This document shows positions 7,185-26,898 of a stretch of 34,199 bases of DNA, piece by piece; position 1 is the first letter of the stretch, and the number at the start of each line of letters is the position of its first letter. Origin of the DNA: an uncultured Caulobacterales bacterium (GTDB lineage Bacteria; Pseudomonadota; Alphaproteobacteria; Caulobacterales; Caulobacteraceae); assembly GCA_903858685.1 (NCBI GenBank), contig CAIOJR010000154.1, forward strand, positions 1 to 34,199. The letters are read 5' to 3'. The position numbers and the translations under genes are program-made. Below the pieces are notes generated by a model that did not search any database, was not told the origin of the DNA, and worked only from the letters and a program-made list of their open reading frames with translations.

Positions 7185-7847
7185 ATGGCCAAGACCCAGT
7201 TTCTCAAAAACCAGAAGGTATGGGTGGAGTCTGTCGGCGCCTGGTCGATCATTGAACGGATCAATCCGGTCTGGGCCAAGGGCTTCGAAGAGCCCGTAAG
7301 GATCACCTATGACGTCGGGCTGGGGCGCGAGTTTCTGGGCCACGAACTGACGCCAGAGCCGCCGAGCGCCACACCCGGGCTGTCCGAAAAGGAGCCCAGA
7401 TGGCGGATCCTGAGAGCCCGCAACAAGTGGCAAACGCCGCCGGACTGTGTCCATCATCCGCATCCGGGAAGCTTTCCCGTGGTGGTGACCGACGAGAATG
7501 ACTGGGGGGGGTGGCGAGTGCCGGGTGCGGAATATGACCGAAGTCCCGATCGAATCGAGGCTCAGGCCCGCGCCATCGCCCAGACGCCGCGCCTGTTGCG
7601 GCTGGCCCGGTCGCTGGCGAATCTGGCGGCCGAACTGGCGGACGATGCGCCTGCGAGCCTGATGGAATTGGGTCAGGAAGCTGACGCCATCCTGGGTCTG
7701 TGCGGCGGCGCGTCAGCTCCGGCCGCCGCGGCAGGGGGCTGGCCCGCCCCCCAAATGTCCGCACCCCAGCCCGCGTCGCCTGAACCCAAGAGAGACCAGG
7801 AAACGCAGACCGGGGAAGCGGCCAATCCGTTCGCGTTCGAGCTTTAG
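7185..7847 (+). CDS. Conserved-looking protein of unknown function
   Basis: A 220-residue soluble protein that I do not recognise. The first about 130 residues look globular, with a small beta-rich start (QKVWVESVGAWSIIERI) and many Trp residues. A helix-forming stretch follows (about 130-175, rich in Ala, Leu and Arg). The tail is Pro/Ala-rich and low complexity (about 180-210) and probably disordered, ending NPFAFEL. There is no signal peptide or membrane segment. The ribosome site before the ATG is weak. It is divergent from the acyl-CoA dehydrogenase unit across 154 bases, and its stop codon overlaps the convergent OmpW stop by four bases. The codon use and the coherent protein suggest a real gene; no function is assigned. 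Confidence 0.7.
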   Translation: MAKTQFLKNQKVWVESVGAWSIIERINPVWAKGFEEPVRITYDVGLGREFLGHELTPEPPSATPGLSEKEPRWRILRARNKWQTPPDCVHHPHPGSFPVVVTDENDWGGWRVPGAEYDRSPDRIEAQARAIAQTPRLLRLARSLANLAAELADDAPASLMELGQEADAILGLCGGASAPAAAAGGWPAPQMSAPQPASPEPKRDQETQTGEAANPFAFEL

Positions 7848-8503
7848 AACTTGTAGCCCACGCCAGCCGACACCACCCAGGGATCGAGATCGACGCTGGA
7901 GGTCAACGCGCCGCCATTGATCGTGGCCTTGGTGTTGAAGAACACCTTCTTCACATCAAGGTTCAGGCTCCATTTGCCCTGCAGGGCGTAGTCGAAGCCC
8001 GCCTGCAAGGCTGTGCCGGCGCCGTCCTTCAGCTTGGTGGTGAAGCCGTTCTTGTTCGAACCGCCGTAGAAAATCATGTAGTTGACGCCAGCGCCGACAT
8101 AGGGGCTGAACTTCGCCTTGGGCGCAAAGTGGTATTGCAGCGACAGGACCGGCGGCAGAACCCAGGTGTCATAGATCTTTACATTGGTCGTACCGCCCAC
8201 GGCCTTGACCGAATGGTCGGAGGTTCCCGCGATCAGTTCAGCCGCCAGATTGTCGGTGAAGAAATAGGTCAGGCCAATGGTCGGCACATAGCTGTCGCTG
8301 ACATTGGCTTTCAGGCCGGTGTCGGCGCCAGCCGCGGTCATCACGCTGTTACCGGCGTCCGGAGAAACGTCGGTCATGCGCACGTTCAGCATGATCGTGC
8401 CCTTAGCCTTGGGCTGAAAGGCGTCATCGGCATGAGCCGCGCCGGCCAGAGCCAGGGCGGCGGCGCCGGCCAGAAGCGCAGTTTGGAAACGGTTGGTCAT
8501 CAT
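7844..8503 (-). CDS. OmpW family outer-membrane protein
   Basis: A 219-residue small outer-membrane beta-barrel. The first 26 residues form a signal peptide (two Met, basic patch, Ala/Leu core, AHA cleavage site before DDAFQP). The mature part has alternating beta-strand segments, including VPTIGLTYFFTDNLAAELIAG and APKAKFSPYVGAGVNYMIFY, typical of the eight-stranded OmpW barrel. It ends in aromatic YKF as outer-membrane proteins do. OmpW proteins form a narrow hydrophobic channel for small nonpolar molecules; the cargo is unknown. An AGGGGATAA segment precedes the paired start codons at 8503 and 8500. It is transcribed divergently from pepN and appears monocistronic. Confidence 0.9.
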   Translation of the reverse strand: MMTNRFQTALLAGAAALALAGAAHADDAFQPKAKGTIMLNVRMTDVSPDAGNSVMTAAGADTGLKANVSDSYVPTIGLTYFFTDNLAAELIAGTSDHSVKAVGGTTNVKIYDTWVLPPVLSLQYHFAPKAKFSPYVGAGVNYMIFYGGSNKNGFTTKLKDGAGTALQAGFDYALQGKWSLNLDVKKVFFNTKATINGGALTSSVDLDPWVVSAGVGYKF

Positions 8504-8592
8504 TTATCCCCTGTGTAGTCGTTGCGCCGCGCCAGTGACTCGACAAAGCGACGTCGACGACAGGGTTGAACGCCCCCTGAACAATTCGCGCT

Positions 8593-8614
8593 TTGACGCG
8601 GCTCAAGGTTATTC
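8593..8614 (+). promoter_or_regulatory. Possible promoter element upstream of pepN
   Basis: TTGACGC at 8593-8599 matches the Caulobacter -35 well. The following GTTATTC (8608-8614) is a poor -10 at a short spacing of 8 bases. Only the -35-like match is convincing. Confidence 0.25.
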
Positions 8615-8655
8615 AGCCTGTGGCCGAGGCGTGGCCTTGGCGCTACACCTTGCAC

Positions 8656-11274
8656 ATGCGCACAGAGTCCCCCGCCCCGATCCGCCTGGCCGAATACCGG
8701 CCCTTCCCGTTTGCCATCCAGTCGATCGACATGGATTTCCAGCTCTCGCCGAACGCAACGCGCGTCACGACGCGGCTCAGCGTCGCGCGAACAGGCGAGG
8801 CGGACGCCGCGCTGGTGCTGGACGGCGTGCGGCTCAAGCTGCTGTCCGTCGCGGTCGACGGGGCGACGCTGCGGCCCGACCAGTATCAGCTCAGCCCCGA
8901 ACACCTGACCCTGCCCGATCTGCCCGACCAGTTCGTGCTCCAGACCGAGGTGGAGATCGCGCCGGCGTCCAATACCGCGCTGGAGGGGCTCTATATGTCG
9001 GGCGGTCGCTTCTGCACCCAATGCGAGGCGGAGGGCTTTCGCAAGATCACCTACTTCCCCGACAGACCAGACGTCCTGAGCCGTTTCACCGTGCGGATCA
9101 CCGCCGACCTCGCCTTCCCCCATCTGTTGTCCAACGGAAATCTGATTGAACAGGGAGACGCCGAAGACGGGCGCCACTTCGCCGTCTGGAACGATCCCTT
9201 CCCCAAGCCCGCCTATCTGTTCGCCCTGGTGGCGGGCGCCCTTGACGTGCTGGACGACAACTTCATCACCATGAGCGGGCGCCAGATCGCGCTGCGCATC
9301 TTTGTCGATCCCGGCCAGTCGTCGCGCGCCGCCTACGCCATGGACGCTCTGAAACGCTCCATGCTCTGGGACGAGCAGGTGTTCGGGCGTGAATACGACC
9401 TCGATCTGTTCATGATCGTCGCTGTTCGCGATTTCAACTTCGGGGCCATGGAGAACAAGGGGTTGAACGTCTTCAACTCGTCACTGCTTCTGGCTGACGA
9501 GGCCACCGCCACTGACGCCGATTTCGAGCGCATCGAGAGCGTGGTGGCCCACGAATATTTTCACAACTGGACCGGCAACCGGATCACCTGCCGCGACTGG
9601 TTCCAGCTATGTCTGAAGGAAGGTCTGACAGTTTTCCGTGATCAGAGCTTTTCCGCCGACCAGCGCGGCGAGACGGTGCAGCGCATCAAGGACGTCAAGA
9701 TGCTGCGCGCCCGCCAGTTCCCCGAGGATGGCGGTCCGATGGCCCATCCCGTGCGCCCGTCGAGCTATGTGAAGATCGACAACTTCTATACCGCCACCAT
9801 CTATGAAAAGGGCGCGGAGGTGATCCGCATGCTCAAGACCCTGATCGGCGACGATGCGTTCCGGGCGGGCATGGATATCTATTTCGCGCGCTGGGACGGC
9901 TGCGCCACGACGGTCGAGGCCTTTATCGCCTGTTTTTCCGAAGCCAGCCAGCGCGACCTGACGGGCTTTTTCAACTGGTATGAGCAGGCGGGAACGCCGG
10001 AAGTGCGGATCGCCCGGGACTATGACGCAGCGTCAAAGGTCCTGACCCTGACATTGGCTCAGACCACAGCGCCAACGCCGGGGCAGCCGACTAAAAAAGC
10101 CCTGCCGATTCCGGTCCGGATCGGCCTTCTCGACAGCCAGGGCGCGTCCCTGTCGGCACGCCTTGACGATGTGACCGCCGATCAGCATCTGGTGGTTCTG
10201 ACCGAAGACATGATGACTGTGCGGCTTGAGGACGTGGCCGCCCCGCCGGTGGTGTCGGCATTGCGCGGGTTCTCGGCGCCGGTCAAGCTGGTGACGGACG
10301 CCGCGCCGCGCGACAACTATGTGTTGATGGCGTCCGACGTGGATCAGTTCAACCGATGGGAAGCCAGTCAGGTGCTGGCGCGCGACCTCATCCTCAGCCG
10401 CGCAGCAGGCCGCCCCGACGAGACGGGCGAGGAGCGGTTCGCCGAGGCGCTCGGGCGTTCGCTGGCCGACGACGACGCCGAACCCGCCTTCCGGGCCCTC
10501 ATGCTGGGCCTGCCGAGCGAAGCCGATCTGGCGCTGGAGGTGGCAGGCCCGGTCGATCCTGCCGCCATCCACGAAGCTCGCGACGCGCTGCGCACACGCA
10601 TCAGCGCACATCTGGGCGACCTGTTGCGCAGGCTGCATACGGGATTGCAGAGTGTCGACGCGTTTTCGCCTGATGCGGCTCAGGCGGGCCGACGCGCGCT
10701 GCGGAATGCGGCCCTGGACCTGATTTCAGCCCTTCCGGACGCCCATGCTGTGGCGCGAGCCGAGGGGCACTTCCATTCCGCCTCCAATATGACCGACATG
10801 ATGGGCGGCCTGTCCGCACTGATGCAGGTCGGCGGCGACACATTCGACCGCGCGCTCACCGATTTCTACGCCAGATGGCGGACGGAACCGCTGGTGATCG
10901 ACAAGTGGTTCTCCATCCAGGCGCGCTCGCCCGCCGACGACGTCCTGGGCCGCGTGCTAGGCCTGACCGCTCATCCAGACTTTGATGCGAAAAACCCCAA
11001 CCGCCTGAGGGCGCTCGTGCAGGGGTTCAGCGTCGGCAATCCTTATCGTTTCCATGCTCCCGATGGGGCGGGCTATCGTTTCCTGGCGGATCAGATCATC
11101 GCAGTGGACAGTATCAACCCGATGGTGGCCGCACGTCTGCTTGAGCCCCTGGGCGGCTGGTCACGGTATGAACGCGCGCGCGCCGACAAGATGAAGGCGG
11201 AGCTGAAACGCATTGCGACGGGAGAGCGCGTTTCCAAAAACGTTTTGGAACTGGCCTCAAAAGCGCTCGGCTAA
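8656..11274 (+). CDS. pepN: Aminopeptidase N (M1 family metallopeptidase)
   Basis: An 872-residue cytosolic zinc aminopeptidase of the E. coli PepN type. It has the substrate N-terminus motif GAMEN at 263-267, the zinc site HEYFH at 299-303, and the third ligand E322 in LKEGLTVFRD. The N-terminal beta domain covers roughly 1-190, the catalytic domain 190-440, and the remainder forms the middle beta and long helical C-terminal domains (DUF3458-type). It trims N-terminal residues from peptides. The frame opens at a TTG at 8593, but ATG 8656 (MRTESPAPIRLAEYRPF) fits the family start, so I used it. The PleC-like kinase gene starts 98 bases after its stop. A striking AT-rich palindrome lies inside its last codons (11232-11250). 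Confidence 0.95.
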   Translation: MRTESPAPIRLAEYRPFPFAIQSIDMDFQLSPNATRVTTRLSVARTGEADAALVLDGVRLKLLSVAVDGATLRPDQYQLSPEHLTLPDLPDQFVLQTEVEIAPASNTALEGLYMSGGRFCTQCEAEGFRKITYFPDRPDVLSRFTVRITADLAFPHLLSNGNLIEQGDAEDGRHFAVWNDPFPKPAYLFALVAGALDVLDDNFITMSGRQIALRIFVDPGQSSRAAYAMDALKRSMLWDEQVFGREYDLDLFMIVAVRDFNFGAMENKGLNVFNSSLLLADEATATDADFERIESVVAHEYFHNWTGNRITCRDWFQLCLKEGLTVFRDQSFSADQRGETVQRIKDVKMLRARQFPEDGGPMAHPVRPSSYVKIDNFYTATIYEKGAEVIRMLKTLIGDDAFRAGMDIYFARWDGCATTVEAFIACFSEASQRDLTGFFNWYEQAGTPEVRIARDYDAASKVLTLTLAQTTAPTPGQPTKKALPIPVRIGLLDSQGASLSARLDDVTADQHLVVLTEDMMTVRLEDVAAPPVVSALRGFSAPVKLVTDAAPRDNYVLMASDVDQFNRWEASQVLARDLILSRAAGRPDETGEERFAEALGRSLADDDAEPAFRALMLGLPSEADLALEVAGPVDPAAIHEARDALRTRISAHLGDLLRRLHTGLQSVDAFSPDAAQAGRRALRNAALDLISALPDAHAVARAEGHFHSASNMTDMMGGLSALMQVGGDTFDRALTDFYARWRTEPLVIDKWFSIQARSPADDVLGRVLGLTAHPDFDAKNPNRLRALVQGFSVGNPYRFHAPDGAGYRFLADQIIAVDSINPMVAARLLEPLGGWSRYERARADKMKAELKRIATGERVSKNVLELASKALG
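11232..11250. repeat. AT-rich perfect palindrome inside the 3' end of pepN
   Basis: TTCCAAAAACGTTTTGGAA has perfect 8-base arms around a 3-base centre, in otherwise GC-rich coding sequence, 24 bases before the pepN stop and about 120 bases upstream of the kinase start. It uses TTG and AAA codons, unlike the CTG/AAG preference around it. It could be an operator for the kinase gene or an RNA hairpin. Confidence 0.5.
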
Positions 11275-11372
11275 TCACGCGAAGCAGTTATATCTCCGTT
11301 ATTCAGGGCCTGTTAGGGAATCGGAGGGGCGCGGAGTTGGTCGGACGCGCTAGACTAGGGGCGGCATCCAAA

Positions 11373-13910
11373 ATGTCCGGCGCTGACACCGCCGGGGCTG
11401 GGCAAGCCTTGACCAGACCCTTCCCTGCGCGGTCACGGATACTGGTGCTGAGCGCGCTGCTGCTGTTGTCGGCCTATACTGTCTTTGCCGGTCTGCGCAT
11501 TCATCAGGGCGCCGACAGGGTGACGGAAAGCTCCGCCCTGAAGCCGGCGGTGGACGCCGCCGCCGGCAGGCTGAACGCCCGCGCCGCCCCTCTGAAATCA
11601 GCCGCTGAAGCCGCAGCCCATCTTTTGTCAAAGAGCCGTGACACCGAGCCGCTGGAGGCTGCGGAACTGGCGCTGAAGCTCGCAGGACCGGGTGCGCTGG
11701 GCGCAGCGGTGGTGCGCGATGGCGAGGTGATCGGCGCGGCGGGACAGGGGGCGCGGTTTCATTGGCTGGACGCCGTGCGCGGCCAGGCGTCGACCATCAC
11801 CCAGATGGGACTGGCCCGATCGGGCGACGCCAGCCTCTATACCGTAACGCCCGCGGGAGACGCGGCCCGGCCGACCTATCTGGTGATCGCCTCGGACCTG
11901 AGCCTGTTCAGCGCAGACCTGGCCGGAGCGCCTCTGCGATCTGGCGTATCGCGCCTGTTGGTTCAGCACGACGGCCTGGTGGTTTCACCGCGCGCCGCCA
12001 AGGGCCCAAATACGCTGGACGGACTGGTCGGTCTGGATCTCTCGCGCATCAAGGCGGACGTTGCGGCAGGCGGCGAAACCGCAGTGGTCAATCCCGACCA
12101 CCATCGCACGCGCCTGTCCGCGGCCCCGGTCGGCGCAACGGGCCTTTTTGTCATCGACACCACGCCCGCCGATCTATTGGCGACCGAAGAGCGCCGGGCG
12201 CTGGCTGCAGACACTGTGTCGCTGCTGGCGCCTCTGGTGGTGGGCATCATACTGGCCCTCGTGGTGTTTCGTCAGGCCCGCAAGGCTGAGCTGGAACAGC
12301 AACAGCGCAGCGACAGCGAGCGCAAGTTTCGCAATGCCGTCGAGGCGGCCCATTGCGGCATCTGGGAATGGCGCATCCGCGACGACATGGTTTTCCTCTC
12401 CGACGTGACGGGCGTGATGTTCGGCTGGGGCGGCGGCGGCGTGGCGCAGGGACAGGAAGTGCTGGCCCGGATCGCACCGGAACACCGGGAGCGGGTGCGG
12501 CTGGCCCTAGCCGATGCGGCGGAGCACGGGGCCTTTGACGTGACCTTCAAGGTGCCGGGCCCGGACGGTCCCGCCTGGATTGATGCGCGCGGTCAGGGCT
12601 TTGGCGAGCGTGACGAGCTTGGCTATTCCGCCATTCTGGGCGTGGCGCTGGACGTGACTCAGGAAAGGCTTGCTCAGGCCCGGGTGATTTCGGCTGAAGA
12701 ACGCCTGAACGACGCCATTGAAAGCGTTTCAGAGGCTTTTGTGCTGTGGGACCGGCGCGGACGTCTGATCATGTCCAACCGCAATTATCAGGAGTTCTTC
12801 AATCTTGAAGCGCGCCTGTTGAAGCCGGGCGTGCGGCGCGACATGATCCAGAAGGTGGCGGAAGTGGCGGTGCGCGCCCACCAGCCTGCGCCCGACGGAC
12901 GCCCCGGCGTGCGCGAGGCCGAAATGCTGGACGGGCGCTGGCTTCAGATTTCCGAACGCCGCACTTCCGATGGCGGCCTTGTCATGACCGCCGCCGACAT
13001 CACCGCTGTGAAGCGGCAGGAAGAGGCGCGGCGACGCAACGAACAGGCCCTGCAACGCGCCGTGATCCGGCTGGAGGAAAGCGGCGCCGAGATGGCGGAA
13101 CTGGCCTACAAGTACGAGCAGGAAAAGATCCGCGCCCAGCAGGCCAACGCGGCCAAGAGCGAGTTCCTGGCCAATATGAGCCACGAACTGCGAACGCCTC
13201 TGAATGCGATCAATGGCTTCTCCGAAATGATGTCGATGGAGATGCTCGGGCCACTGGGCGATGCGCGCTACAAGGAATACGCCCACGACATTCTGGGCTC
13301 GGGGCAGCACCTGCTGGCCGTGATCAACGACATTCTGGACATGGCCAAGATCGAAGCTGGCAAGCACAGCCTGAACCTGGAGGCCGTCGATCTGAGAAGC
13401 GTCGCCGAAGACGCCACCCGCCTGATGCGCAACCGGGCTGAGGCGGGCGGGTTGACCCTGAGCGTGGAGATGGGCGACCTGCCGATCGTGGAGGCGGATC
13501 CACGCGCCGTGAAGCAGGTTCTGCTGAACCTCTTGTCCAATGCGGTGAAGTTCACCCCGCGCGGCGGTCAGGTCAAGATTGCCGCGCGCCGCGTGTCCGA
13601 TCGGGTGCGGATCAGCGTCATGGATACTGGCATAGGCATCGCCAAGAACGATCTGGCCCGCCTGGCGCGCCCGTTCGAGCAGGTGGAGAGCCAGTTGGCC
13701 AAGACCCAGCAGGGCACAGGCCTGGGACTGGCCCTGTCCAAATCTCTGGTCGAAATGCATGAAGGTCGGCTGGAGCTGATCAGCGAGCCCGGGCGCGGCA
13801 CCACTGTCAGCTTCGTTCTGCCGATCCAGCAGCGCCATGCGCCAGATCGCGCCTCGGCGTCGGATCTGGCGGCTGCGACGACGCCTAGCCTGGCCAGGGC
13901 CAAGGCATAA
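11373..13910 (+). CDS. pleC: PleC-like PAS sensor histidine kinase
   Basis: An 845-residue membrane histidine kinase. TM1 is at about 22-44, a periplasmic sensor at 45-279 and TM2 at about 280-300. Two PAS domains follow (about 313-433 and 441-548), then a coiled coil, HisKA with phospho-acceptor H604 in NMSHELRTPLNAINGFSE, and HATPase with NLLSNAVKF, DTGIGIA and GTGLGLAL boxes. Length, layout and the HisKA wording closely match Caulobacter PleC, the bifunctional kinase/phosphatase of DivK and PleD at the flagellated pole. Close relatives such as DivJ have a different N-terminus, so PleC fits best. The frame opens at TTG 11337; ATG 11373 has an AGGGGCGG site upstream. No response regulator is adjacent, as expected for an orphan polar kinase. 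Confidence 0.82.
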   Translation: MSGADTAGAGQALTRPFPARSRILVLSALLLLSAYTVFAGLRIHQGADRVTESSALKPAVDAAAGRLNARAAPLKSAAEAAAHLLSKSRDTEPLEAAELALKLAGPGALGAAVVRDGEVIGAAGQGARFHWLDAVRGQASTITQMGLARSGDASLYTVTPAGDAARPTYLVIASDLSLFSADLAGAPLRSGVSRLLVQHDGLVVSPRAAKGPNTLDGLVGLDLSRIKADVAAGGETAVVNPDHHRTRLSAAPVGATGLFVIDTTPADLLATEERRALAADTVSLLAPLVVGIILALVVFRQARKAELEQQQRSDSERKFRNAVEAAHCGIWEWRIRDDMVFLSDVTGVMFGWGGGGVAQGQEVLARIAPEHRERVRLALADAAEHGAFDVTFKVPGPDGPAWIDARGQGFGERDELGYSAILGVALDVTQERLAQARVISAEERLNDAIESVSEAFVLWDRRGRLIMSNRNYQEFFNLEARLLKPGVRRDMIQKVAEVAVRAHQPAPDGRPGVREAEMLDGRWLQISERRTSDGGLVMTAADITAVKRQEEARRRNEQALQRAVIRLEESGAEMAELAYKYEQEKIRAQQANAAKSEFLANMSHELRTPLNAINGFSEMMSMEMLGPLGDARYKEYAHDILGSGQHLLAVINDILDMAKIEAGKHSLNLEAVDLRSVAEDATRLMRNRAEAGGLTLSVEMGDLPIVEADPRAVKQVLLNLLSNAVKFTPRGGQVKIAARRVSDRVRISVMDTGIGIAKNDLARLARPFEQVESQLAKTQQGTGLGLALSKSLVEMHEGRLELISEPGRGTTVSFVLPIQQRHAPDRASASDLAAATTPSLARAKA

Positions 13911-17658: not shown

Positions 17659-19668
17659 TCAGTCGCGATAGCGGGTCAAGGCGTCGCCCAGTGCGATCTT
17701 CAAAGGCTCGAGCCAAGGCTCAAAGCTGCGCCACTGATCCAGCCCGTCGCGAAAGATCGGCTGGCGGACCTGTTCGGAACTGGGCGTGCGCACGCTGCGG
17801 CGGTTCTGGTGAAAGTCCACGCAACCGGGTTCGAAATCCAGCTCGCAATAGTCCAGGATCCTGCGAACACTGGTTTCCAGATCGTTCACCACATCTTCAT
17901 GCTGAACCCGCAGCACACGGCCCGGCAGGGCGTCGTCCCAGTGCTGCATCAGGTCCAGATAGGTCCGATAATAGCGGGCTATGTCATCGACGCCGTAGCT
18001 GAACTCCTGCCCCTGAGCGAAGAGCTGCTTCAGATTGCTGAAACAGCAGGACATGGGATCGCGCCTTGCATCGATAATCCGCGCGTTTGGCAGCAGCAGA
18101 TGAATCAGCCCTATATGCCTGAAATTGTTAGGCATTTTGTCTATGAAAAACGGGCGCCCTGACCGATAGACACGCGTTTCATCCAGAAAACGCGCGCCAA
18201 GTCGCGCGGCGTCTGCAGAGGTCAGCTCCTGCAGGGAGGCGGGATACCGGGGCTCCAGCAAGTCGGAATTGGGCCCCTGCAAGTCCAGTACTATGCGTTG
18301 AATATTGGCCAGCTCATGGGTCCCTTCAACCTGGGAGTGAGAGGCCAATATCTGTTCAAGCAGGGTGGAGCCCGCTCGCGGCAGGCCCAGAATGAATATC
18401 GGATCGGGACCGGGATCACCCCAGCCTGAGCGGGCGCTGAAGAACTGTCGGGTGCAGATTCTTGCCTGCTCCCGTGTATTGGTCTCAAAAACTTCCGGCA
18501 CATAGCGATTTTCCGACCGCTTCAAAGCGTTGCCGCGATCATAATAGGTCCAGGCTGACTCAGCGTCGCCCCGGTCTTCGTGCGCCTTGCCCAGGGCGAA
18601 ACACAGATGGTAGCGATCGGCCAGGCGAATTGTCGGCGCGGTTTCAACCTCAGCCATCCGGACCACTTCGTCCTCGCTGAACCGGAAAGTCTTCAGATTG
18701 GCCAGACTCCAATAGGCGTCGCCGAAATCAGGACGGGCCGCCGCCGCCGCCCGGTAGCTGTCAATCGCTTCTGGCGTGCGCCCGACCGTCTTCAGGGCAT
18801 GGCCCAGCCAAAGCGGAATATCCCAGGAATTGGGCGCATCGGCGTACATGTCGCAATAGATCTCAATCGCGCGCTCATTGTGACCCAGCCCGACCTCGGC
18901 GGTCGCCGCCACGGTGCGGTAGTCGAGGTTGGCGGGGTCCAGCGCCAGCAAAAGATCGACCTGCTGCAGGGCCTCGGTGTGACGCTGACGTCTGATCAAT
19001 GTCTGGGCGTAGTCATAGCGCGCGGCGAGATAGTCGGGAACAAGCTCCAGCAAGGCTTCCAGCAAGGCCTCGGCGTCGTCGAGCACATCCATCGCCAGGG
19101 CGATGCGCGCCAGAAGCCGCATGGCCTCCGGGTGGTTCCCGTTCTGCACTAAAAAGTTTCGTACAATGGGTTCCGCGCTCGCCAGATCGCCGTCTGAGAA
19201 CAGCGACGTGGCGGTGACCACGTCCGGCGGAAGCGCCTGGAGCGTTGTCAGATGCTCCACGGCCAGGGCGGCGTTGTCTGCATCATCGGTCATGCGATAA
19301 AGCCCGACCAGCATATTCCAGCTGGCGGGCAGAGCCGGGTTGATGTTCACGGCGATCAGAAGGCTGTTGATCGCCGACGCCGCATCGCGCTGCGCGACGT
19401 AACACATCCCGCGTTCCTGATGCAGGCGGCTGAACCCCGGATAGAGCCTTTCCATTCGCTGGAGCGTGGCCAGGGCGTCATCAATCTGCCCCAGATGGCG
19501 CTGACTGATCGCCTGGATAAGAAGCAGATCGCGGTTCTCTGGCCACTTGTTCAGCCAACCGGCCGCCTGGGGCAGGACATCAGCATGTTGTCCATCAAGC
19601 TGTTGACGCTTCAGTTGCTGAACAGCAGCCTCGACCTCAGACTGCGGTAGCGTCGTTGTCATGGACAT
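17659..19668 (-). CDS. TPR-repeat sulfotransferase
   Basis: About 669 residues. The N-terminal 400 or so are helical TPR repeats. The C-terminal about 270 residues are a PAPS-dependent sulfotransferase domain. The 5'-phosphosulfate loop is FILGLPRAGSTLLEQILASH, and the 3'-phosphate site is RIIDARRDPMSCCFSNL. There is no signal peptide or membrane helix, so it acts in the cytosol. Such proteins sulfate glycans, lipids or peptides; the acceptor is unknown, and the TPR part probably docks it. The open frame begins with TTG at 19680, followed by in-frame ATGs at 19668 and 19662. I chose 19668, but 19662 has the better GGGAT spacing. It follows the TonB-dependent receptor gene on the same strand, with a hairpin in between. 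Confidence 0.88.
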   Translation of the reverse strand: MSMTTTLPQSEVEAAVQQLKRQQLDGQHADVLPQAAGWLNKWPENRDLLLIQAISQRHLGQIDDALATLQRMERLYPGFSRLHQERGMCYVAQRDAASAINSLLIAVNINPALPASWNMLVGLYRMTDDADNAALAVEHLTTLQALPPDVVTATSLFSDGDLASAEPIVRNFLVQNGNHPEAMRLLARIALAMDVLDDAEALLEALLELVPDYLAARYDYAQTLIRRQRHTEALQQVDLLLALDPANLDYRTVAATAEVGLGHNERAIEIYCDMYADAPNSWDIPLWLGHALKTVGRTPEAIDSYRAAAAARPDFGDAYWSLANLKTFRFSEDEVVRMAEVETAPTIRLADRYHLCFALGKAHEDRGDAESAWTYYDRGNALKRSENRYVPEVFETNTREQARICTRQFFSARSGWGDPGPDPIFILGLPRAGSTLLEQILASHSQVEGTHELANIQRIVLDLQGPNSDLLEPRYPASLQELTSADAARLGARFLDETRVYRSGRPFFIDKMPNNFRHIGLIHLLLPNARIIDARRDPMSCCFSNLKQLFAQGQEFSYGVDDIARYYRTYLDLMQHWDDALPGRVLRVQHEDVVNDLETSVRRILDYCELDFEPGCVDFHQNRRSVRTPSSEQVRQPIFRDGLDQWRSFEPWLEPLKIALGDALTRYRD

Positions 19669-19701
19669 ATCCCGGCTCAAGAGGGCTTTCCAATAGCAGA
19701 A

Positions 19702-19755: not shown

Positions 19756-22488
19756 CTAGAAGCTCTCGGAAATCTTCAGCCCGATCACCCGCGGCCTCAG
19801 CGGCACCTCAGCCTTGATGAACTGAGCCGAGGTCGTGAAGGTCGACACGTGCGAGTTCAGCAGGTTCGAGCCGATCAGCTGAAGTGTCCAGTTGTCCTTG
19901 GTCACGCCAATCGATCCGCCGAAGGTTGCCGAAGGCGCAAGCCGATAGCGGAGCTGCGTCGTGTTCGGCACCGGGTTCTGAGAGGGCAGATCACCCGACG
20001 GATAGTTCGCCGGCTGATTATACATGTGGCTGGTATAGGCGGAGTCGAGGCTTGCGAAAGCCTTGAACTCATTCACCGTCCAGTCGTAACGGGCGCGCAA
20101 TTCCGCCTGAAGCTGCGGCGAAAACGCTGAAACGCCACCCTTCACACCCAGAGGATTGGCATAGGGCGTGCCCTTGATCTCGGTGATGCAGCCGCCCACC
20201 TTGGCGCGCTGCGGATCCACCGCCGCACCGGCTGGCAAGGCGATGTTTGCCAGCAGACAGGGTGAATTGGCCTGACGGTTGTCATTGTAGCTCGCAGAGC
20301 CCATCAGGGTCAGGCCCTCGGTCACCCGCGCCGTGAATTGTCCCTCCACACCCTTGATCGTGTAGTTGGGGCCGTTCACCAGGAAGGTCGTGTTGCCCAG
20401 GCAGCAAGGCTGATAGAGCCCGAGCTGGACCTGCGTCCAGTCCATCACATAACCCGACACATTCAACTGCAGACGCCGATCGAACAGTTGCGTCTTGAAG
20501 CCGACTTCGTTGTTCACCAGGCTGTCCGGTGAATATCCGATCGGGGTCGCATATTGCGGATAGCCGTTGGCGTCATTGGCCTTGTTACGCGACGAACGGC
20601 TGAACCCGCCCGGACGGAAGCCTTCCGAATAGAGATAGTAGAACATGGTGGTCTCTGTGGGTTTCCACTGGAGGCCGACCTTGCTCTTGAATCCGGAATA
20701 GTTGACCTTCAGGTGCTCGGCGTCGATATTCGTGTTCAGGCCGCAGAGATTGGCCGCCGCATTGGCGATCCCCTTGGCTGTGCTGTCGACGAAGCACTTG
20801 CCGCCGGTCGAATAGACAGAGCCCTTTTCGTATTCGTCGTAGCTGTAATGGCGCGAACCGAAGGTCAGGATCAGCGTCTTGGGAATGATGTCATAGTCAA
20901 CCTGGCCAAAGAAGGCGAGCTGGTCATAGCCGCGCTGCACCACTTCACCAAAGCCGGTATTGTCCGGACGGAAGCCCGGTTGCAGCGCAGTGGACCCCGG
21001 ATAGGTCTGGACATTGAGGAAGCAGGGCGCACCGCCCGCCAGGGCGCTGGCCTGATTGGTTCCCTGATCGCAGGCGGGAACCGTCTTATAGTTGAAGTCC
21101 ATCATGTCATAGATGCGGTACTGTTCGTGGAACACGCCGCCCACACCGCGCAGGCGCCAGTCGCCTGGCGTGGACACGCGCAGTTCGTTGGTCAGGTGCG
21201 TGTTGCGCACCTTGTCGTACCAGCTGGTGATCGGCGAATAACAGCGGATGGGGCCGTTGCCGAGCAGGCCGGCAGTTCCACCCGTGCACTCATAATACTG
21301 CCCATAGAGCGTGCGTGAGTAGTTCGTATAGTCGTTTTGCTGCTTGATGTGACGGTCAGTAAAGGCGCCCGTATAGATCAGGCTGAGGTCCTTCACCTTG
21401 CCGTTTACCGTCCACGAGGTGTTCTCGTAGTTGTCCTTGTAATAGGTCGGCACGAAGGATGTGACCTGAAGCGGCTGGAGCTGCTGCTGATCCGAACCCA
21501 GCGGGAACTGCATCGACAGACCTTCAGCGTCGAGGTTTGCAACGCTCTGTGTGATCAGCAGGTCCCAATTCGGGGCCACATCCCACAACAATGAAATGCG
21601 CGCGCCTTCACGTGTCACCGGGTTCTGAGCGGGTTTGGCGAGCTGGTAATTATTGGCCACGCCTGCTTGACCGCCTATCTGGTTGGCCAGCGGAATGGTG
21701 CAGTAGCCCGTCAGGCCAGCTGCTTGACCATTGGGGCACAGACCCCCGGTCGGCTTGATCCCGAAATAGCTGTTGTCGTCAAGATTCTTGCGCGTGAAGG
21801 TGCTGGGGACGTTGTCAATATAGCCCCCCTGCTTGTCATTGTAGATCACGGCGCGCACGGCGATCTTGTCACCGATTGGCACGTTCAGCGTGGCATTGAG
21901 CGAATCGTTGGAGTCGCCATGTTCGGTATAGCCGTAGGAGCCCTCGACCTTGCCCTGGGTGACGCCGAGCTTGGGCTTGTTGGTGATGTAGCGCAGTGCG
22001 CCAGCCTGGGCCCCGCCGCCGAACAGCGTGCCTTGCGGCCCTTCGAGCACTTCGACCCGCTCCATATCGGCCATGTAGATGTCTACGTTGCGGCCGGGAA
22101 ACTGCATCGACTGGTCGTCCAGATAGATGGCGACGTTCGGGAAATTGCCGACCGTTGCGCTGGACTGGTTGCCCGACTGACCCGCCGACAGGCCGCGCAT
22201 GAAGATTGAGCCCTGTCCCGGACCGTTGGAGCCATAGCTGACATTCGGCGTAAACCGCAACAGGTCCGCCAGATCAACCACGTTCAGCTTGTTCAACGTC
22301 TCGCTTGAGAACGCCTGAACCGTCATCGGCACCTTTTGAACGGTCTCGTCACGGCGCTGAGCCGTCACGACCACTTCTTCAACGGAAATCGAAGGGCTGG
22401 CGTCCGCGGCGGGCGCAGCATAGGCCGCCGCACCGAGACTGCTGAGCACGGCCGCAGCCGCGCACGAGACGAGATAGCTGGCTTTCAT
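19756..22488 (-). CDS. TonB-dependent receptor
   Basis: A 910-residue outer-membrane active-transport receptor. A signal peptide (about 1-24, MKASYLVSCAAAAVLSSLGA) is followed by the TonB box region VEEVVVTAQRRDE. The plug domain comes next (about 50-190, with LADLLRFTPNVSYG and the VEVLEGPQGTLFGGGAQAGALRYI hallmark, positions near 22000-22060). The 22-strand barrel ends in the aromatic ISESF. Such receptors use TonB energy to import siderophores, vitamins, glycans or other large solutes; the ligand is not readable. An upstream in-frame ATG at 22500 exists, but ATG 22488 has a GGGGGAA site at the right distance. It is followed by the sulfotransferase gene and lies just downstream of the phosphonate operon on the same strand. 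Confidence 0.95.
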   Translation of the reverse strand: MKASYLVSCAAAAVLSSLGAAAYAAPAADASPSISVEEVVVTAQRRDETVQKVPMTVQAFSSETLNKLNVVDLADLLRFTPNVSYGSNGPGQGSIFMRGLSAGQSGNQSSATVGNFPNVAIYLDDQSMQFPGRNVDIYMADMERVEVLEGPQGTLFGGGAQAGALRYITNKPKLGVTQGKVEGSYGYTEHGDSNDSLNATLNVPIGDKIAVRAVIYNDKQGGYIDNVPSTFTRKNLDDNSYFGIKPTGGLCPNGQAAGLTGYCTIPLANQIGGQAGVANNYQLAKPAQNPVTREGARISLLWDVAPNWDLLITQSVANLDAEGLSMQFPLGSDQQQLQPLQVTSFVPTYYKDNYENTSWTVNGKVKDLSLIYTGAFTDRHIKQQNDYTNYSRTLYGQYYECTGGTAGLLGNGPIRCYSPITSWYDKVRNTHLTNELRVSTPGDWRLRGVGGVFHEQYRIYDMMDFNYKTVPACDQGTNQASALAGGAPCFLNVQTYPGSTALQPGFRPDNTGFGEVVQRGYDQLAFFGQVDYDIIPKTLILTFGSRHYSYDEYEKGSVYSTGGKCFVDSTAKGIANAAANLCGLNTNIDAEHLKVNYSGFKSKVGLQWKPTETTMFYYLYSEGFRPGGFSRSSRNKANDANGYPQYATPIGYSPDSLVNNEVGFKTQLFDRRLQLNVSGYVMDWTQVQLGLYQPCCLGNTTFLVNGPNYTIKGVEGQFTARVTEGLTLMGSASYNDNRQANSPCLLANIALPAGAAVDPQRAKVGGCITEIKGTPYANPLGVKGGVSAFSPQLQAELRARYDWTVNEFKAFASLDSAYTSHMYNQPANYPSGDLPSQNPVPNTTQLRYRLAPSATFGGSIGVTKDNWTLQLIGSNLLNSHVSTFTTSAQFIKAEVPLRPRVIGLKISESF

Positions 22489-22730
22489 AAGTTCCCCCAT
22501 TGAACGGGCGCCAGCAAGCGTCGGAGGCCAGAGTCGGAGGACCTACCCTCTTTCCCACAGCCCGATTCAACGCATAGAAACTGCTATGACGCGCCAAAGA
22601 TGAGGACTGGTATGAGCGTGCTCGATGACGGTTCGGCGACGGAAAAACTTCGTTTCCTTGAAGTCTTGTCGACAGTCACAAGACACTGTGGCGTCAAGTT
22701 CGCGCCGCGCTAATCTTGCGCTCTCAAAAT
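22489..22730. promoter_or_regulatory. Receptor upstream region with -35-like element and inverted repeat
   Basis: This 242-base gene-free stretch separates the phosphonate operon end from the receptor start. On the minus strand TTGACGC occurs at 22697-22691. Just downstream is an inverted repeat with arms GTCTTGT (22663-22669) and ACAAGAC (22678-22684), which would cover the -10 region. A GATTC (CcrM-type GANTC) site is at 22564-22568. I see no coding sequence here. Confidence 0.35.
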
Positions 22731-23282
22731 CTAAAGGTGATTCAACAGGCCATTCATCAGTGGAATAAAGTCAGAGAACGGAATATTTGCCGAATACAGA
22801 CGTTTACCCGTATCATCAAAGCGTCGCAGCGCCAGGGCGTCATGGAAATGGTTCAATCGCTCGAAAGCCAGCGCCTGACCGGTCTCAAACGGTCCGCCCT
22901 GAAGCGCCAGCGTCGCCTTTGAGGCCGCGCTCAGGCCCTCATAATATTGAGGCTCCTTCCAGCACAGATAACGCTTGGCTGCGACATGCAGGGCGATGGG
23001 ACCGGTCACAGCCTCTGCGAACAGGTCGGACAGGGCGTCGGCGCCGGTGATCTCGTGATGATCATCGCTCGAAAAGGACGCCACCGCCGACTCATCTTCG
23101 AACAGATGACCGACATCATGCAGCAGGGCCGCGACGACCAGGCTGGGCGAGCCGCCGCTCTGTCGCGCCAGCTGGGCGCATTGCACGGCGTGCTCCAGCT
23201 GAGTCACGCCCTCGCCATAGGCGAGAGCGCCCTGTGTGGCGTACAGATGCACGATTTGCTCAATGCTGGACAGTCTGGCCAT
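22731..23282 (-). CDS. HD-domain phosphonate-operon protein, PhnZ-like oxygenase
   Basis: A 183-residue HD-domain protein resembling PhnZ, the mixed-valence di-iron oxygenase that splits (R)-2-amino-1-hydroxyethylphosphonate into glycine and phosphate. The likely iron ligands are H31 in VTQLEHAVQCA, H55 and D56 in ALLHDVGHL, one of H75/H76, H99 in ALHVAAKRYL, and a late Asp in LRRFDD. K103 could bind the phosphonate. The segment QLEHAVQCAQLA and the length of about 185-190 residues match the phosphonate-operon HD family better than nucleotide HD hydrolases. The frame runs back to 23363 inside the transporter gene. ATG 23282 has a GGGGAG site and gives the family start MARLSSIEQIVHLY. It is the last gene of the operon and overlaps the transporter gene by 23 bases. 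No PhnY partner is in the window. Confidence 0.8.
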   Translation of the reverse strand: MARLSSIEQIVHLYATQGALAYGEGVTQLEHAVQCAQLARQSGGSPSLVVAALLHDVGHLFEDESAVASFSSDDHHEITGADALSDLFAEAVTGPIALHVAAKRYLCWKEPQYYEGLSAASKATLALQGGPFETGQALAFERLNHFHDALALRRFDDTGKRLYSANIPFSDFIPLMNGLLNHL

Positions 23283-24591
23283 GGCCACTCCCCGCGCCCA
23301 GCCGTCGCCAGAAGTAAAAGCCCGCGCCGACGACCAGCACGACGCCGACGGCTGAGGAGGCATAGGAAATGGTCTCCAGGAACTCCACCCAGGACAGTTT
23401 TACCCCCGCAAAGTCGCGAAACAGCAACAGCGCGACGGAACTGATATAGCCGCAAGCGTCGGCCACATAGATCAGGAAGCCTGCATTGCCCCCTCGCCCC
23501 GACGCCGCGATGAAGCGGTCAAACAGGATGGCGTTAAACGGCGTATAGGCCAGATAGAGCCCCGCCCCGAGCGCGATCATCCAGGTCACGGGCCCGATCA
23601 GGTGCGCCTTGAACGCATAGGTGCACAGGCCCGACAGCGCCAGCCCCACCCCGACCAGCAACAGATTGGCCATGAAGGCGTGGCGATTGTCGCGAACGAA
23701 CATGACCAGGGCGAGCATGGTCAGCACGATGACGGCGACGGGAATCTCTGACAGTGAAAATATCTGGGCGTCATTGTGAAAGCCTAGCCCGGCCCAGATG
23801 TCGGCGGCGAAATTGTCCCGGAAATCTCGCAGTGCGGTAAGCCCCACATAGGTGATCACCAGAACGACCAGTCCCGGCGCATAGGCCGAAAACAGCCGCA
23901 ATCGCGCGCCGGCGTCCATCGGGGTGCGAGGCACGCGCGTCGCCTCATCCTCTGCGGAGGGCGGCGGCAGCGCAGCAAGCCCGGACACGCAGATCAGAAG
24001 CAGCGGCGTAAACAACAACCCCGTCAGGGCGGGCATCCAGTATTCATTGGCCCAACCGCGCAGCAGGACGAACTCGCCCGCTGATTTCACCACGCCTGAC
24101 GAAACGATGAAGCTGGTGCACAGCATGGCGCCCAACACTTCCGACACCCGGCGCCCTTCCAGAAAGCCGAACACCAGTCCCCAGATCATTCCCAGCGCCA
24201 GACCGTTGACGAACAGGCAGGCAATATTCCAGGGCGCAGGAATCAGGGCGAACAGCACGAGCGCCGCCTCGCCCAAGCCGATCAGCAGCACAATACCCAG
24301 GGCGCGATGTTGGGGAGGGGTTTCGGAGATGAATTTGACGCCGAGAATCTTGGACAGGGCGTAGCCAAACACCTGGGCAATGACCAGGGCGCTCTTGTAC
24401 TTGACGATGAAGGGCGCTGCATCGGCAAAGCCCGCCACGGTGAAAGGCTTCCGGAAGGCGTACATGGCGAAATAGGCGCCAAAAGCCATCAGTCCGGCAT
24501 AGAGCGCAAAGATGGGCGCCGGGGCGCGCGACAACTGGTGGCGCAGCCCGCCCAAGATAGACCCTGAAGGGTTCGCTGAGCTGGCGGTCAC
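23260..24591 (-). CDS. DUF5690-like MFS transporter, candidate phosphonate importer
   Basis: A 443-residue membrane protein with about 12 hydrophobic segments and a polar central loop (about 208-232), the usual MFS layout. It resembles the DUF5690 group. YAFRKPF (R47) and GYALSKILG (K81) in the N-half, and the TALRDFRDN stretch (R255) at the start of the C-half, sit where the glycerol-3-phosphate antiporter GlpT has R45, K80 and R269, which bind phosphate. This alignment is from memory. With PhnX and the phosphonate flavoenzyme as neighbours, uptake of 2-aminoethylphosphonate, or exchange for phosphate, is the best guess. The start is GTG, overlapping the phnX stop (24588-24591). No phosphonate ABC transporter is present in the window. 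Confidence 0.78.
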   Translation of the reverse strand: MTASSANPSGSILGGLRHQLSRAPAPIFALYAGLMAFGAYFAMYAFRKPFTVAGFADAAPFIVKYKSALVIAQVFGYALSKILGVKFISETPPQHRALGIVLLIGLGEAALVLFALIPAPWNIACLFVNGLALGMIWGLVFGFLEGRRVSEVLGAMLCTSFIVSSGVVKSAGEFVLLRGWANEYWMPALTGLLFTPLLLICVSGLAALPPPSAEDEATRVPRTPMDAGARLRLFSAYAPGLVVLVITYVGLTALRDFRDNFAADIWAGLGFHNDAQIFSLSEIPVAVIVLTMLALVMFVRDNRHAFMANLLLVGVGLALSGLCTYAFKAHLIGPVTWMIALGAGLYLAYTPFNAILFDRFIAASGRGGNAGFLIYVADACGYISSVALLLFRDFAGVKLSWVEFLETISYASSAVGVVLVVGAGFYFWRRLGAGSGHGQTVQH

Positions 24592-25385
24592 GCGCCGGCG
24601 ATCCGCTTGGCGATGTCGTGCACGACGGACATCAGCTGGGACACGTCCTCAATCACATAGTCTGCGCCGGCGGCGCGCAACTGGCGCTCGGACTCGCTCA
24701 CGCGCTGAGCCCGATCCTCGTCCGACAGGGCCAGGAACGCCTCGCGACCCAGACCGACGCCATTTCCAGATGCCGAAAGCCCGACGGCCCAGCACCCGGC
24801 GTTCTTGCCTTCCTGCATGCCCACGGGGGCGTCGTCCACCTTGATGCAGGCGCTGGCGGGCCAGGCGTCCAGCGCAATCAGCGCCTTCCATGTCATGAAG
24901 GGGGCCGGTCGCCCGGTGGGCGTTTCGCCGGCGCAGACCACGAAGTCAGGCGCATAGCCCTGAGCGGCGGCGCTTGGAAGGATGTCCGCCATCATTTCGC
25001 GTGTGTAGCCGGTGCCAGAGCCGATCTTGACGCCGAGTCCGCGAAGCTCGGCCACCAGCTCCGCTGCGCCCGGAATCAGTTTCGCGCTTTTACCCGCCGC
25101 CGCCGTCATGGCGGGTTCGAGCTTGGCGTAGAGGGCCAGAACATCGGCCTCCGCCGCGACCGAGCCCTTGGCCGCCACCCAGCGCGCGGCGACACCCGGC
25201 TCCGCCAGAATGGCGCGCAGATGGTCAAGCTTGGCCTTGCCCATGTCGCGGCGCGCCTCGGCTTCAGACAGATCGACGCCGGCTTCGGCAAAGACGTCGA
25301 TCAGCGCTTCGACCGGCGCCATGCACCCGAAGTCGATGACCGTGCCTGCCCAGTCGAATATGACCGCCTTGACGGGAAAGCTCAT
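24588..25385 (-). CDS. phnX: Phosphonoacetaldehyde hydrolase (phosphonatase)
   Basis: A 265-residue HAD-superfamily enzyme that cleaves phosphonoacetaldehyde to acetaldehyde and phosphate. The nucleophile is D11 in IFDWAGTVIDFG. The cap-domain Schiff-base lysine is K52 in RRDMGKAKLDHLRAIL. Motif 2 lies around IGSGTGYTREMM, and the acidic motif is IKVDDAPVGMQEGKNAG, followed by WAVGLSASGNGVGL. The length and every key segment match true PhnX rather than generic HAD phosphatases. The protein is cytosolic. Its ATG overlaps the FAD oxidoreductase stop by four bases (25382-25385), with a GGAG site inside that gene, so the flavoenzyme product is very likely its substrate. The usual partner PhnW transaminase is absent from the window. 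Confidence 0.95.
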   Translation of the reverse strand: MSFPVKAVIFDWAGTVIDFGCMAPVEALIDVFAEAGVDLSEAEARRDMGKAKLDHLRAILAEPGVAARWVAAKGSVAAEADVLALYAKLEPAMTAAAGKSAKLIPGAAELVAELRGLGVKIGSGTGYTREMMADILPSAAAQGYAPDFVVCAGETPTGRPAPFMTWKALIALDAWPASACIKVDDAPVGMQEGKNAGCWAVGLSASGNGVGLGREAFLALSDEDRAQRVSESERQLRAAGADYVIEDVSQLMSVVHDIAKRIAGA

Positions 25386-26530
25386 GCATGGGTCTCCAGA
25401 TCTATATTGAACAGGTCGGCAATGACCCGCTCGGCAATGCCAAATCCCGTCGACGCGCCAGTGCCGCTGGTGACGATCACCAATCGCACGCCGGGCTCGG
25501 GCGTATCAATCAGATAGGTGCGATCATCCGCAACGGCATAGACGCCGGTCCAGCGCTCCACCACCTCTGGCGCGGCGCGCCCCATGGCGCGCTGATACTC
25601 GTCGAGGATGTCCGCCTCTGCCTGAGCTGGCGCGAACGGCGCAGGCAGATGACTGTAATGGTGACTGTCTCCCACAATCAGTCCGCCGTCCCCGCCCTGA
25701 GCCACGATCAGATGAACGCCATTGTCAAAATGGCTGGACTGTTCCTCGCGGAGCCGGGCCTCCAGCGCCCTGGCCTGCGGCAGGGCCGCATATCCGCGAT
25801 ACCGGGTCAGGCTGAGATCAGACATCACCGCTCCAGGCAGGCGGAAGCCGGGATCCGCCAATTTCAGCATCGACAGACGACATTTTTGCAAACCGAAACT
25901 GGCGATCCGATCAGGATAGAGAGTGACGAAATCATCGCCGGGGCACACCACGACCGCTCCGGCCTCCACCACTCCGCGCGACGTGTGAAGGCGTGGCGGG
26001 GTCGCATCAAAGGCCACCGTCTCATTAAGAAAGACGACACCCAGCGCCTCGCGCAGCCACGCGGTCAGAATCGGAATGACCGTGCGGGATTCGACCCGGA
26101 TCTCATGTGGACTATAGAGAACGCCCGCCAGGTCTGGTCCCCCAAGGCCGCCCGCCAGATTTCGGAAGGCGTCTGGCGCCAGCACTCGGCAGCCTGCGCC
26201 CATTTCCGTCGCCAGAAAGGCCTCGATCACCGCGACCGCCTCAGACGAGCGCGCGGTCACAAACAGTCCTTCATGCTCCACGGTCAGGCCGGCCTGAGCC
26301 GCGATCTCGACCCAGACGTCCCGTGTGCGGCGCGCCAGCGTCCAACTGTCGCCCCGCTCCTGTCCTGTCACCGTGATGAAGCCGAAATTGCGGATCGACG
26401 CGCCGTTGGCGCGGCTGTCCTTCTCGATGACGCAGACTCGCTTACCCGCACGCGCCGCCACAAAGGCGTGAGCAAGTCCGATCACGCCCCCGCCGATGAC
26501 AGCAAGATCGTAACAATTGGCTTTCGTCAT
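25382..26530 (-). CDS. Phosphonate-associated FAD-dependent oxidoreductase (TIGR03364 type)
   Basis: A 382-residue flavoprotein of the DAO family (glycine/sarcosine oxidase fold). The Rossmann motif is IGGGVIGLAHAF (G13, G15, G18), followed by the E of VIEKD for the ribose. The signature ASIRNFGFITVTGQERGDSW marks the clade linked to phosphonate operons (TIGR03364). The C-terminal FAD motif is TSGTGASTGFGIAERV. It probably oxidises the amine of 2-aminoethylphosphonate, its N-methyl form or the 1-hydroxy analogue, giving phosphonoacetaldehyde or a relative plus ammonia or methylamine and H2O2. The frame extends to 26578; ATG 26530 gives the family start. It is the first gene of the operon, with a palindrome 26-46 bases upstream. 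The substrate is not proven. Confidence 0.88.
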   Translation of the reverse strand: MTKANCYDLAVIGGGVIGLAHAFVAARAGKRVCVIEKDSRANGASIRNFGFITVTGQERGDSWTLARRTRDVWVEIAAQAGLTVEHEGLFVTARSSEAVAVIEAFLATEMGAGCRVLAPDAFRNLAGGLGGPDLAGVLYSPHEIRVESRTVIPILTAWLREALGVVFLNETVAFDATPPRLHTSRGVVEAGAVVVCPGDDFVTLYPDRIASFGLQKCRLSMLKLADPGFRLPGAVMSDLSLTRYRGYAALPQARALEARLREEQSSHFDNGVHLIVAQGGDGGLIVGDSHHYSHLPAPFAPAQAEADILDEYQRAMGRAAPEVVERWTGVYAVADDRTYLIDTPEPGVRLVIVTSGTGASTGFGIAERVIADLFNIDLETHA

Positions 26531-26715: not shown

Positions 26716-26898
26716 CTAAATATGACTGTCGCCTTGCGGCGCCAGCGCCGCCAGCACCTGATCGGGGTCCAGCCCCAGGGCCTCGACCTTTTCGCGCCAG
26801 CGCTCCAGCGCATCCCAGTAATAGTCGAATATGCAGGGACAACAGCCTCTGTTGCAGCATTCCTGTGGGTGCGGCTTGTATGGAGGCGAAGGGACCAT
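26716..26898 (-). CDS. Small Cys-rich oxidoreductase-like domain protein
   Basis: A 60-residue protein with the pattern PPYKPHPQECCNRGCCPCIF followed by DYYWDALERW, which fits the Oxidored-like family (PF09791): Pro-rich start, CC...GC..C cluster, then an amphipathic helix. The five cysteines (14, 15, 19, 20, 22) could hold a metal or Fe-S centre; the family's role is not established. Two overlapping frames in this stretch give no sensible protein. The ATG lies 12 bases after the stop of the TPR-glycosyltransferase gene, so it is probably read from that transcript. The ribosome site is weak. A 185-base gap follows before the phosphonate operon start. Confidence 0.75.
   Translation of the reverse strand: MVPSPPYKPHPQECCNRGCCPCIFDYYWDALERWREKVEALGLDPDQVLAALAPQGDSHI

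Follow-up and report, generated by a model that had tools for sequence, protein, structure and literature searches.

Replacement of the enzyme PhnW by a flavin-dependent oxidase in the breakdown of 2-aminoethylphosphonate (AEP) has been described in closely related systems. PbfD enzymes oxidise N-methyl-AEP to phosphonoacetaldehyde in vitro, PbfD2 also turns AEP itself into phosphonoacetaldehyde (kcat/KM 3400 per M per s), and PbfD2 followed by PhnX has been proposed as a PhnW-free pathway; outside the PbfD1 group, according to the available text of the same report, linkage to phnX in clusters that lack phnW is common (Zangelmi 2023, PMC10590968). A second example is the Achromobacter cluster lysR, phnSTU, hpnW, phnX, phnHD, in which a TIGR03364 oxidase stands in for PhnW beside PhnX and a TIGR03276 HD-domain protein; the accessible portion of that paper also mentions another strain with no phnW homologues in its genome (Epiktetov 2024, PMC11203657). 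On the transport side, the GlpT-related major facilitator superfamily (MFS) carrier AepP is needed by Pseudomonas putida BIRD-1 to grow on AEP as nitrogen source, as stated in the available text of that study (PMC8316502), and a review consulted in excerpt describes the experimental data bearing directly on phosphonate transporters as "quite limited" (PMC10574752). Here we compare with these systems a four-gene operon at positions 22,731 to 26,530 of a 34,199-nucleotide stretch of DNA from an uncultured Caulobacterales bacterium (hereafter the window; in the draft genome, of 3.87 Mb and 279 contigs, it is contig C154).

The operon is read from the reverse strand. It begins with the gene of a PbfD-like, flavin adenine dinucleotide (FAD)-dependent amine oxidase (26530..25382; TIGR03364, 397 bits against a cut-off of 285.1; PF01266), followed by phnX for phosphonoacetaldehyde hydrolase (25385..24588; TIGR01422, 331 bits, cut-off 220), a gene with a GTG start for an MFS carrier of family DUF5690 (24591..23260; PF18943, 502.6 bits, cut-off 25) and a gene for a PhnZ-like HD diiron oxygenase (23282..22731; TIGR03276, 205.3 bits, under the cut-off of 214.6). 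Coordinates and family matches thus bear out the arrangement reported by the initial annotation, four genes on one strand with overlaps of 4, 4 and 23 bases, and none of the four contains an internal stop. This arrangement is not a chance one, because the order oxidase, phnX, carrier, HD gene and TonB-dependent receptor is seen again in a genome of the same genus (locus L037), and because, in a set of 60 relatives, the oxidase gene adjoins phnX in every one of the 14 genomes in which phnX passes its cut-off, that of the window among them. The locus is a real, conserved aminophosphonate operon with known enzyme chemistry; its less expected part is the DUF5690 carrier, and neither this transporter family nor the TonB receptor is connected to this chemistry in the literature searched.

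Taken together, the operon probably imports aminophosphonates and frees phosphate without PhnW. In the mechanism that we propose, the TonB receptor may admit substrate through the outer membrane, and the DUF5690 carrier would then take it through the inner one, most likely in the fashion of an organophosphate:phosphate antiporter; the flavoenzyme would then use O2 to convert AEP and/or its N-methyl form to phosphonoacetaldehyde, which PhnX would split into acetaldehyde and phosphate. The HD oxygenase has no hydroxylase gene as a neighbour and would independently cleave a 1-hydroxy-aminoalkylphosphonate supplied from outside. Each of these substrates we infer.

The idea that a flavin oxidase takes the place of PhnW, central to the initial annotation, is sound but already known, since both the replacement of PhnW (PMC10590968) and a cluster of oxidase, PhnX and HD protein (PMC11203657) appear in the available text of published reports. 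In support of it here, an amine-oxidase-type flavoenzyme lies beside a canonical phnX with a 4-base overlap, and the genome contains no PhnW over the family cut-off (best match 118.8 bits against 360.8), while the five relatives with PhnW over it score 424.7 to 447.4; a phnW elsewhere in the genome was accordingly rejected at that threshold. The oxidase is the only TIGR03364 protein over cut-off in its genome. Among the 60 relatives, PhnX passes its cut-off in 14 and PhnW in five, both only in one genome (G015), and PhnW over cut-off is thus missing from 13 of the 14 genomes that bear phnX. D11 and K52 of PhnX match conserved positions in solved phosphonatases; we take these to be the nucleophile Asp and the Schiff-base Lys, respectively. 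When 71 flavoenzymes were arranged in a FastTree phylogeny rooted on an Acinetobacter protein with phnW beside its gene, the window enzyme fell among mostly phnX-linked ones, of which that of L098 has phnW near it. The likeness to the PbfD2-PhnX pair of M. fucicola extends to a PF01266 flavin oxidase beside phnX, the absence of phnW and, by prediction, direct oxidative formation of phosphonoacetaldehyde; the DUF5690 carrier and TonB receptor are features of the present operon that were not met in the available text on that system (PMC10590968). Similarly, the Achromobacter cluster has transport genes phnSTU where the operon has DUF5690 and a TonB receptor, and strains with that cluster have phnW elsewhere, as far as the accessible part of the paper describes them (PMC11203657).

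The HD protein completes the set of recognisable enzymes. All six diiron ligands (H34, H58, D59, H80, H104 and D161, with numbering and roles that we assume from PhnZ-type enzymes) are aligned in it, as they are in 35 of 37 alignment rows, and it keeps the equivalents of K108, S126 and R158. It falls 9 bits short of the TIGR03276 cut-off, and near relatives in L139 (212.0) and L078 (211.1) are also just under 214.6. Identity to PhnZ (PDB 4mlm) and TmpB (6npa) is 42% and 36% over 156 and 170 aligned positions; the six ligands are common to all three, whereas the lid motif of the window protein, Y-G-E, is one residue shorter than the Y-x-G-E of PhnZ and TmpB, and the operon has no PhnY*/TmpA gene. 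Two residues of the Y-x-G-E motif presumably line the PhnZ lid, and the shortened lid offers a defined change for testing substrate choice in PhnZ-type oxygenases. Our best guess is that the protein is a PhnZ that acts on hydroxylated aminophosphonate from outside; in some pseudomonads, TIGR03276 proteins are described together with PhnW and PhnX and without PhnY* in the available text of one report (PMC11203657).

It is also conceivable, if somewhat unlikely, that the HD enzyme completes a PhnY*/TmpA-type route begun by a hydroxylase from another part of the genome, in which case the operon would contain two convergent pathways. Candidate partners exist: contig C254 encodes a TmpA-like dioxygenase (L164, 6961-8675; about 356.5-356.8 bits, under the cut-off of 400), and there are 11 PhyH-family matches elsewhere in the genome, none singled out as a dedicated PhnY*. 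The C254 gene, however, has its own HD-type gene behind it, for a protein with all six ligands and no NCBIfam match at E 1e-30. The lid points the same way, with Y-x-G-E in three of three HD proteins encoded beside a separate tmpA and Y-G-E in 24 of 27 HD proteins without tmpA nearby, the window included (exceptions in L142, with Y-L-G-E, L083 and L042), on the assumption that the Y-x-G-E spacing defines a group. These 27 comprise the proteins of the window, L042, L072 and 24 named loci, with a duplicate of L042, the fused L147 protein, and L164 set aside; two reference proteins and two fusions, each fusion with Y-G-E, were tallied separately. Fusions of an under-cut-off TmpA-like part with a PhnZ-like HD part, 540 and 560 residues long, also lie beside DUF5690 in two loci (L084:11278-12900 and L108:1468-3150). 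A fused PhnY/PhnZ, PhoF, is reported from a fungus in the consulted part of a review.

The DUF5690 gene is the least explained component of the operon, and the name DUF5690 was found in no paper of the literature searched. Its genomic linkage to carbon-phosphorus (C-P) bond catabolism suggests a testable job for this unnamed transporter family. We examined 80 DUF5690 loci, the best 80 of 546 matches confirmed in a single scan; they are not independent, because most come from Caulobacterales and Sphingomonadales. Open reading frames in them were accepted if GC3 exceeded GC2 by at least 0.08, and were assigned by phmmer at E 1e-10, so that genes in low-GC loci can be missed. A gene of the FAD oxidase, PhnX, HD or TmpA type lies near DUF5690 in 58 of the 80 (oxidase 45, PhnX 40, HD 27, TmpA type 8), and in 33 of the 47 loci that span at least 20 kb. 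The eight TmpA-type loci are L095, L104 and L111 (its gene being that of L030), all over cut-off, L084 and L108, under it, and L106, L114 and L147, unscored. The oxidase or PhnX gene is present in 47 of the 80, and in 40 of these its distance to DUF5690 is no more than 400 bases, in three layouts (18 divergent, 16 on the same strand upstream, six on the same strand downstream), which points to repeated rearrangements that preserved the linkage. Since DUF5690 is rare across the class (5 of 385 genomes), co-occurrence was tested in the 60 relatives: 13 have both DUF5690 and phnX, two and one have a single gene, and 44 have neither (Fisher p 2.7e-10, uncorrected for kinship).

The association reaches beyond the oxidase route. 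PhnW is encoded in three of the 80 loci (L098, L120 and L150), accompanied by genes whose products group with PhnA and PhnY; PhnA in L150 scores 594.9 bits (cut-off 407.55) and PhnY in L098 861.3 bits (cut-off 635.65), the neighbour clusters, which include the phospholipase and regulators as well as PhnA and PhnY, being named from single representatives. In a plasmid collection, all four records with DUF5690 have phnX as its immediate or second neighbour: the order is DUF5690-FAD-phnX in Novosphingobium and DUF5690-phnX-phnW in three Bacteroidota, Parabacteroides (L180), Bacteroides (L185) and Phocaeicola, the genes of the last being called by phmmer. One gene away from the Parabacteroides block lies an inorganic phosphate transporter gene. 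The host genome itself contains a second HD-DUF5690 pair, on contig C217 (locus L042, 23500-43000, at 7735-13330), behind a LysR gene that fits a phosphonate-type family best (186.7 bits, under the cut-off of 341.1); phosphodiesterase and alpha/beta hydrolase genes come after the pair.

Structure and profile comparisons lean towards the organophosphate:phosphate antiporters. The AF2 model of the carrier (pLDDT 90, pTM 0.88) returns human SLC37A4 and SLC37A2 at Foldseek ranks 1-12 against the PDB, with GlpT at rank 27. By profile, the N-terminal half aligns in register at transmembrane helix (TM) 1 with GlpT (25.2, over 101 columns) and UhpT (29.1) and weakly with UhpC (18.9); seven other E. 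coli carriers used as controls, with DgoT and LacY as partial sequences, score 11.9 to 17.6. R47, K48 and K81 of DUF5690 thereby align with R45, K46 and K80 of GlpT. The TM1 Arg-Lys pair and the TM2 Lys we take to be the phosphate site of GlpT-type antiporters; R47 and K81 are kept in 42 of 42 DUF5690 proteins and K48 in 41, the remaining one having Arg. R255 and R258 are also invariant in all 42, and the profile alignment puts neither on the TM7 Arg of GlpT. It is on the fold ranking, the N-half alignment and the AepP precedent that we liken DUF5690 to these antiporters, claiming no family membership, and we read it as a proposed aminophosphonate importer like AepP. The two are both MFS carriers, AepP being related to GlpT (PMC8316502), while DUF5690 forms a separate Pfam family with no sequence match to antiporter models. 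A close sequence relative among solved transporters was sought as well, with no match at E up to 1.

Several observations weigh against the proposal of an importing, PhnW-free operon. VIA-align places SLC37A4 (G6PT) first at Z 32.1, yet unrelated MFS carriers reach 28 to 31, so the SLC37 likeness is a lean and not proof. The UhpT match spans only 26 columns, UhpC is barely apart from the N-half controls and, over the whole protein, scores 15.7, within the control range of 13.7 to 19.0. The C half has no profile match to antiporters; 42 DUF5690 proteins give zero NCBIfam organophosphate-antiporter matches at E up to 1, and the only transporter match there is XylE (E 0.0015, in one of the 42 members). 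Linkage, too, has gaps: 13 of the 80 loci have neither a phosphonate gene nor a window-type receptor in the flank examined, two relatives (G031 and G053) carry DUF5690 without PhnX, and the control Caulobacter vibrioides has DUF5690 over cut-off with no PhnX, TIGR03364 or PhnW protein over theirs, nor a Phn-HD or TmpA match (PhnA and PhnY were not sought there). The oxidase is 27% identical to the PbfD1-type Acinetobacter protein; at that identity, we think it unlikely to be a PbfD1, and its membership of the PbfD2 subgroup is putative. Finally, a phnCDE set on contig C126 (PhnE 284.6 bits, cut-off 216.7; PhnC 281.5, cut-off 266.1; PhnD 220.8, under 261.1) could import the substrate. The initial annotation had supposed that no ATP-binding cassette (ABC) transporter would be needed; with phnCDE elsewhere in the genome, this is true of the operon only.

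An alternative is that DUF5690 is not the importer and instead exports surplus phosphate or acts as a UhpC-like membrane sensor, import passing through the TonB receptor and PhnCDE. Besides the C126 genes, the annotation of UhpC as a glucose 6-phosphate sensor, in what we take to be the same transporter family, and the retention of DUF5690 by C. vibrioides without PhnX over cut-off fit such a role. Yet DUF5690 stands directly before phnX and phnW in two annotated Bacteroidota records, and AepP is a precedent for import. Records without DUF5690, moreover, have ABC genes (Rhizobium) or EamA genes (Comamonas) near FAD-phnX, as though one importer could stand in for another; with part of the neighbours annotated, further carriers may lie near DUF5690. 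On balance we consider a non-importing DUF5690 doubtful, and proceed with the carrier as a probable route of uptake, the direction and coupling of which we infer.

An extension of the import reading can be offered tentatively. DUF5690 might be an unrecognised family of aminophosphonate:phosphate exchangers found in both Alphaproteobacteria and Bacteroidota, where it would serve no fewer than four C-P routes (oxidase-PhnX, PhnW-PhnX, PhnWYA and TmpA, or five with the HD enzyme taken by itself), the freed phosphate being exported to pay for uptake; in Caulobacterales and relatives its partners would be a dedicated TonB receptor and an orphan PhnZ with the short lid, the latter acting directly on hydroxylated phosphonates from the environment. 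If uptake is paid for in this way, the cell would gain mainly nitrogen and carbon, and bacteria using phosphonates by such exchange would release phosphate to their surroundings.

That the substrate of the flavoenzyme is some other amine (a glycine derivative, a secondary amine like glyphosate or a longer aminophosphonate), with PhnX serving only part of its products, seems improbable: glycine oxidases, followed by L-proline dehydrogenase and sarcosine oxidases, are the nearest PDB folds of its model (pLDDT 93.5), and glycine derivatives have been predicted in silico for a TIGR03364 protein in the available text of one report (PMC11203657), but the invariable adjacency to phnX in relatives with phnX over cut-off, and the formation of phosphonoacetaldehyde by the characterised PbfD enzymes (PMC10590968, in the portion available), argue otherwise.

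The likely unit is larger than the four genes, and its transcript may include the TonB-dependent receptor gene (22500..19756, reverse strand; Pfam Plug and barrel domains), 230 bases beyond the HD gene, and, 75 bases further on, a gene for a tetratricopeptide repeat (TPR)-sulfotransferase (19680..17659, reverse strand; PF13469, 175.5 bits), listed with a TTG start and having ATG codons at 19668 and 19662; both genes lie on the operon's strand and recur in related clusters. Receptors of the window type (>800 bits) are encoded in 21 of the 80 DUF5690 loci and TPR-sulfotransferase homologues in 24, 17 of them together with the receptor. The receptor is possibly the outer-membrane entry of the aminophosphonate system; a TonB receptor linked to AEP catabolism has no evident precedent in the literature searched. 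We also considered whether the receptor is a generic paralogue and think this unlikely: the best paralogue in the genome scores 352 bits (38% identity) against the >800 bits of linked receptors, figures that come from different search set-ups. On the other side of the operon, between it and an upstream TPR gene, lies a gene for a 60-residue PF09791 (Oxidored-like) protein (26898..26716, reverse strand), shorter than the length cut-off of the open reading frame lists. No Pho box precedes the oxidase gene, and the window has three matches against 1.72 expected (enterobacterial-type consensus, up to three mismatches).

Among other neighbours of DUF5690, a phosphocholine-specific phospholipase C gene (TIGR03396; 746.5 bits at L097:6903-9032, cut-off 580.25) lies nearby in 21 of the 80 loci (L097 and 20 others of L078-L157). 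Such a link with AEP catabolism has no evident precedent in the literature searched; the proximity perhaps points to phosphonolipids as a source. In the genome studied here, the corresponding gene lies apart, on contig C232. The phospholipase C genes near DUF5690 are often accompanied by HD and PhnR-like genes. Lastly, a Gloeocapsa plasmid (L184, 1-8205), with no annotated phnX, combines a TIGR03364 oxidase and a HAD hydrolase with AEP-type ABC genes, phnF and a diphosphatase gene of the C-P lyase pathway.

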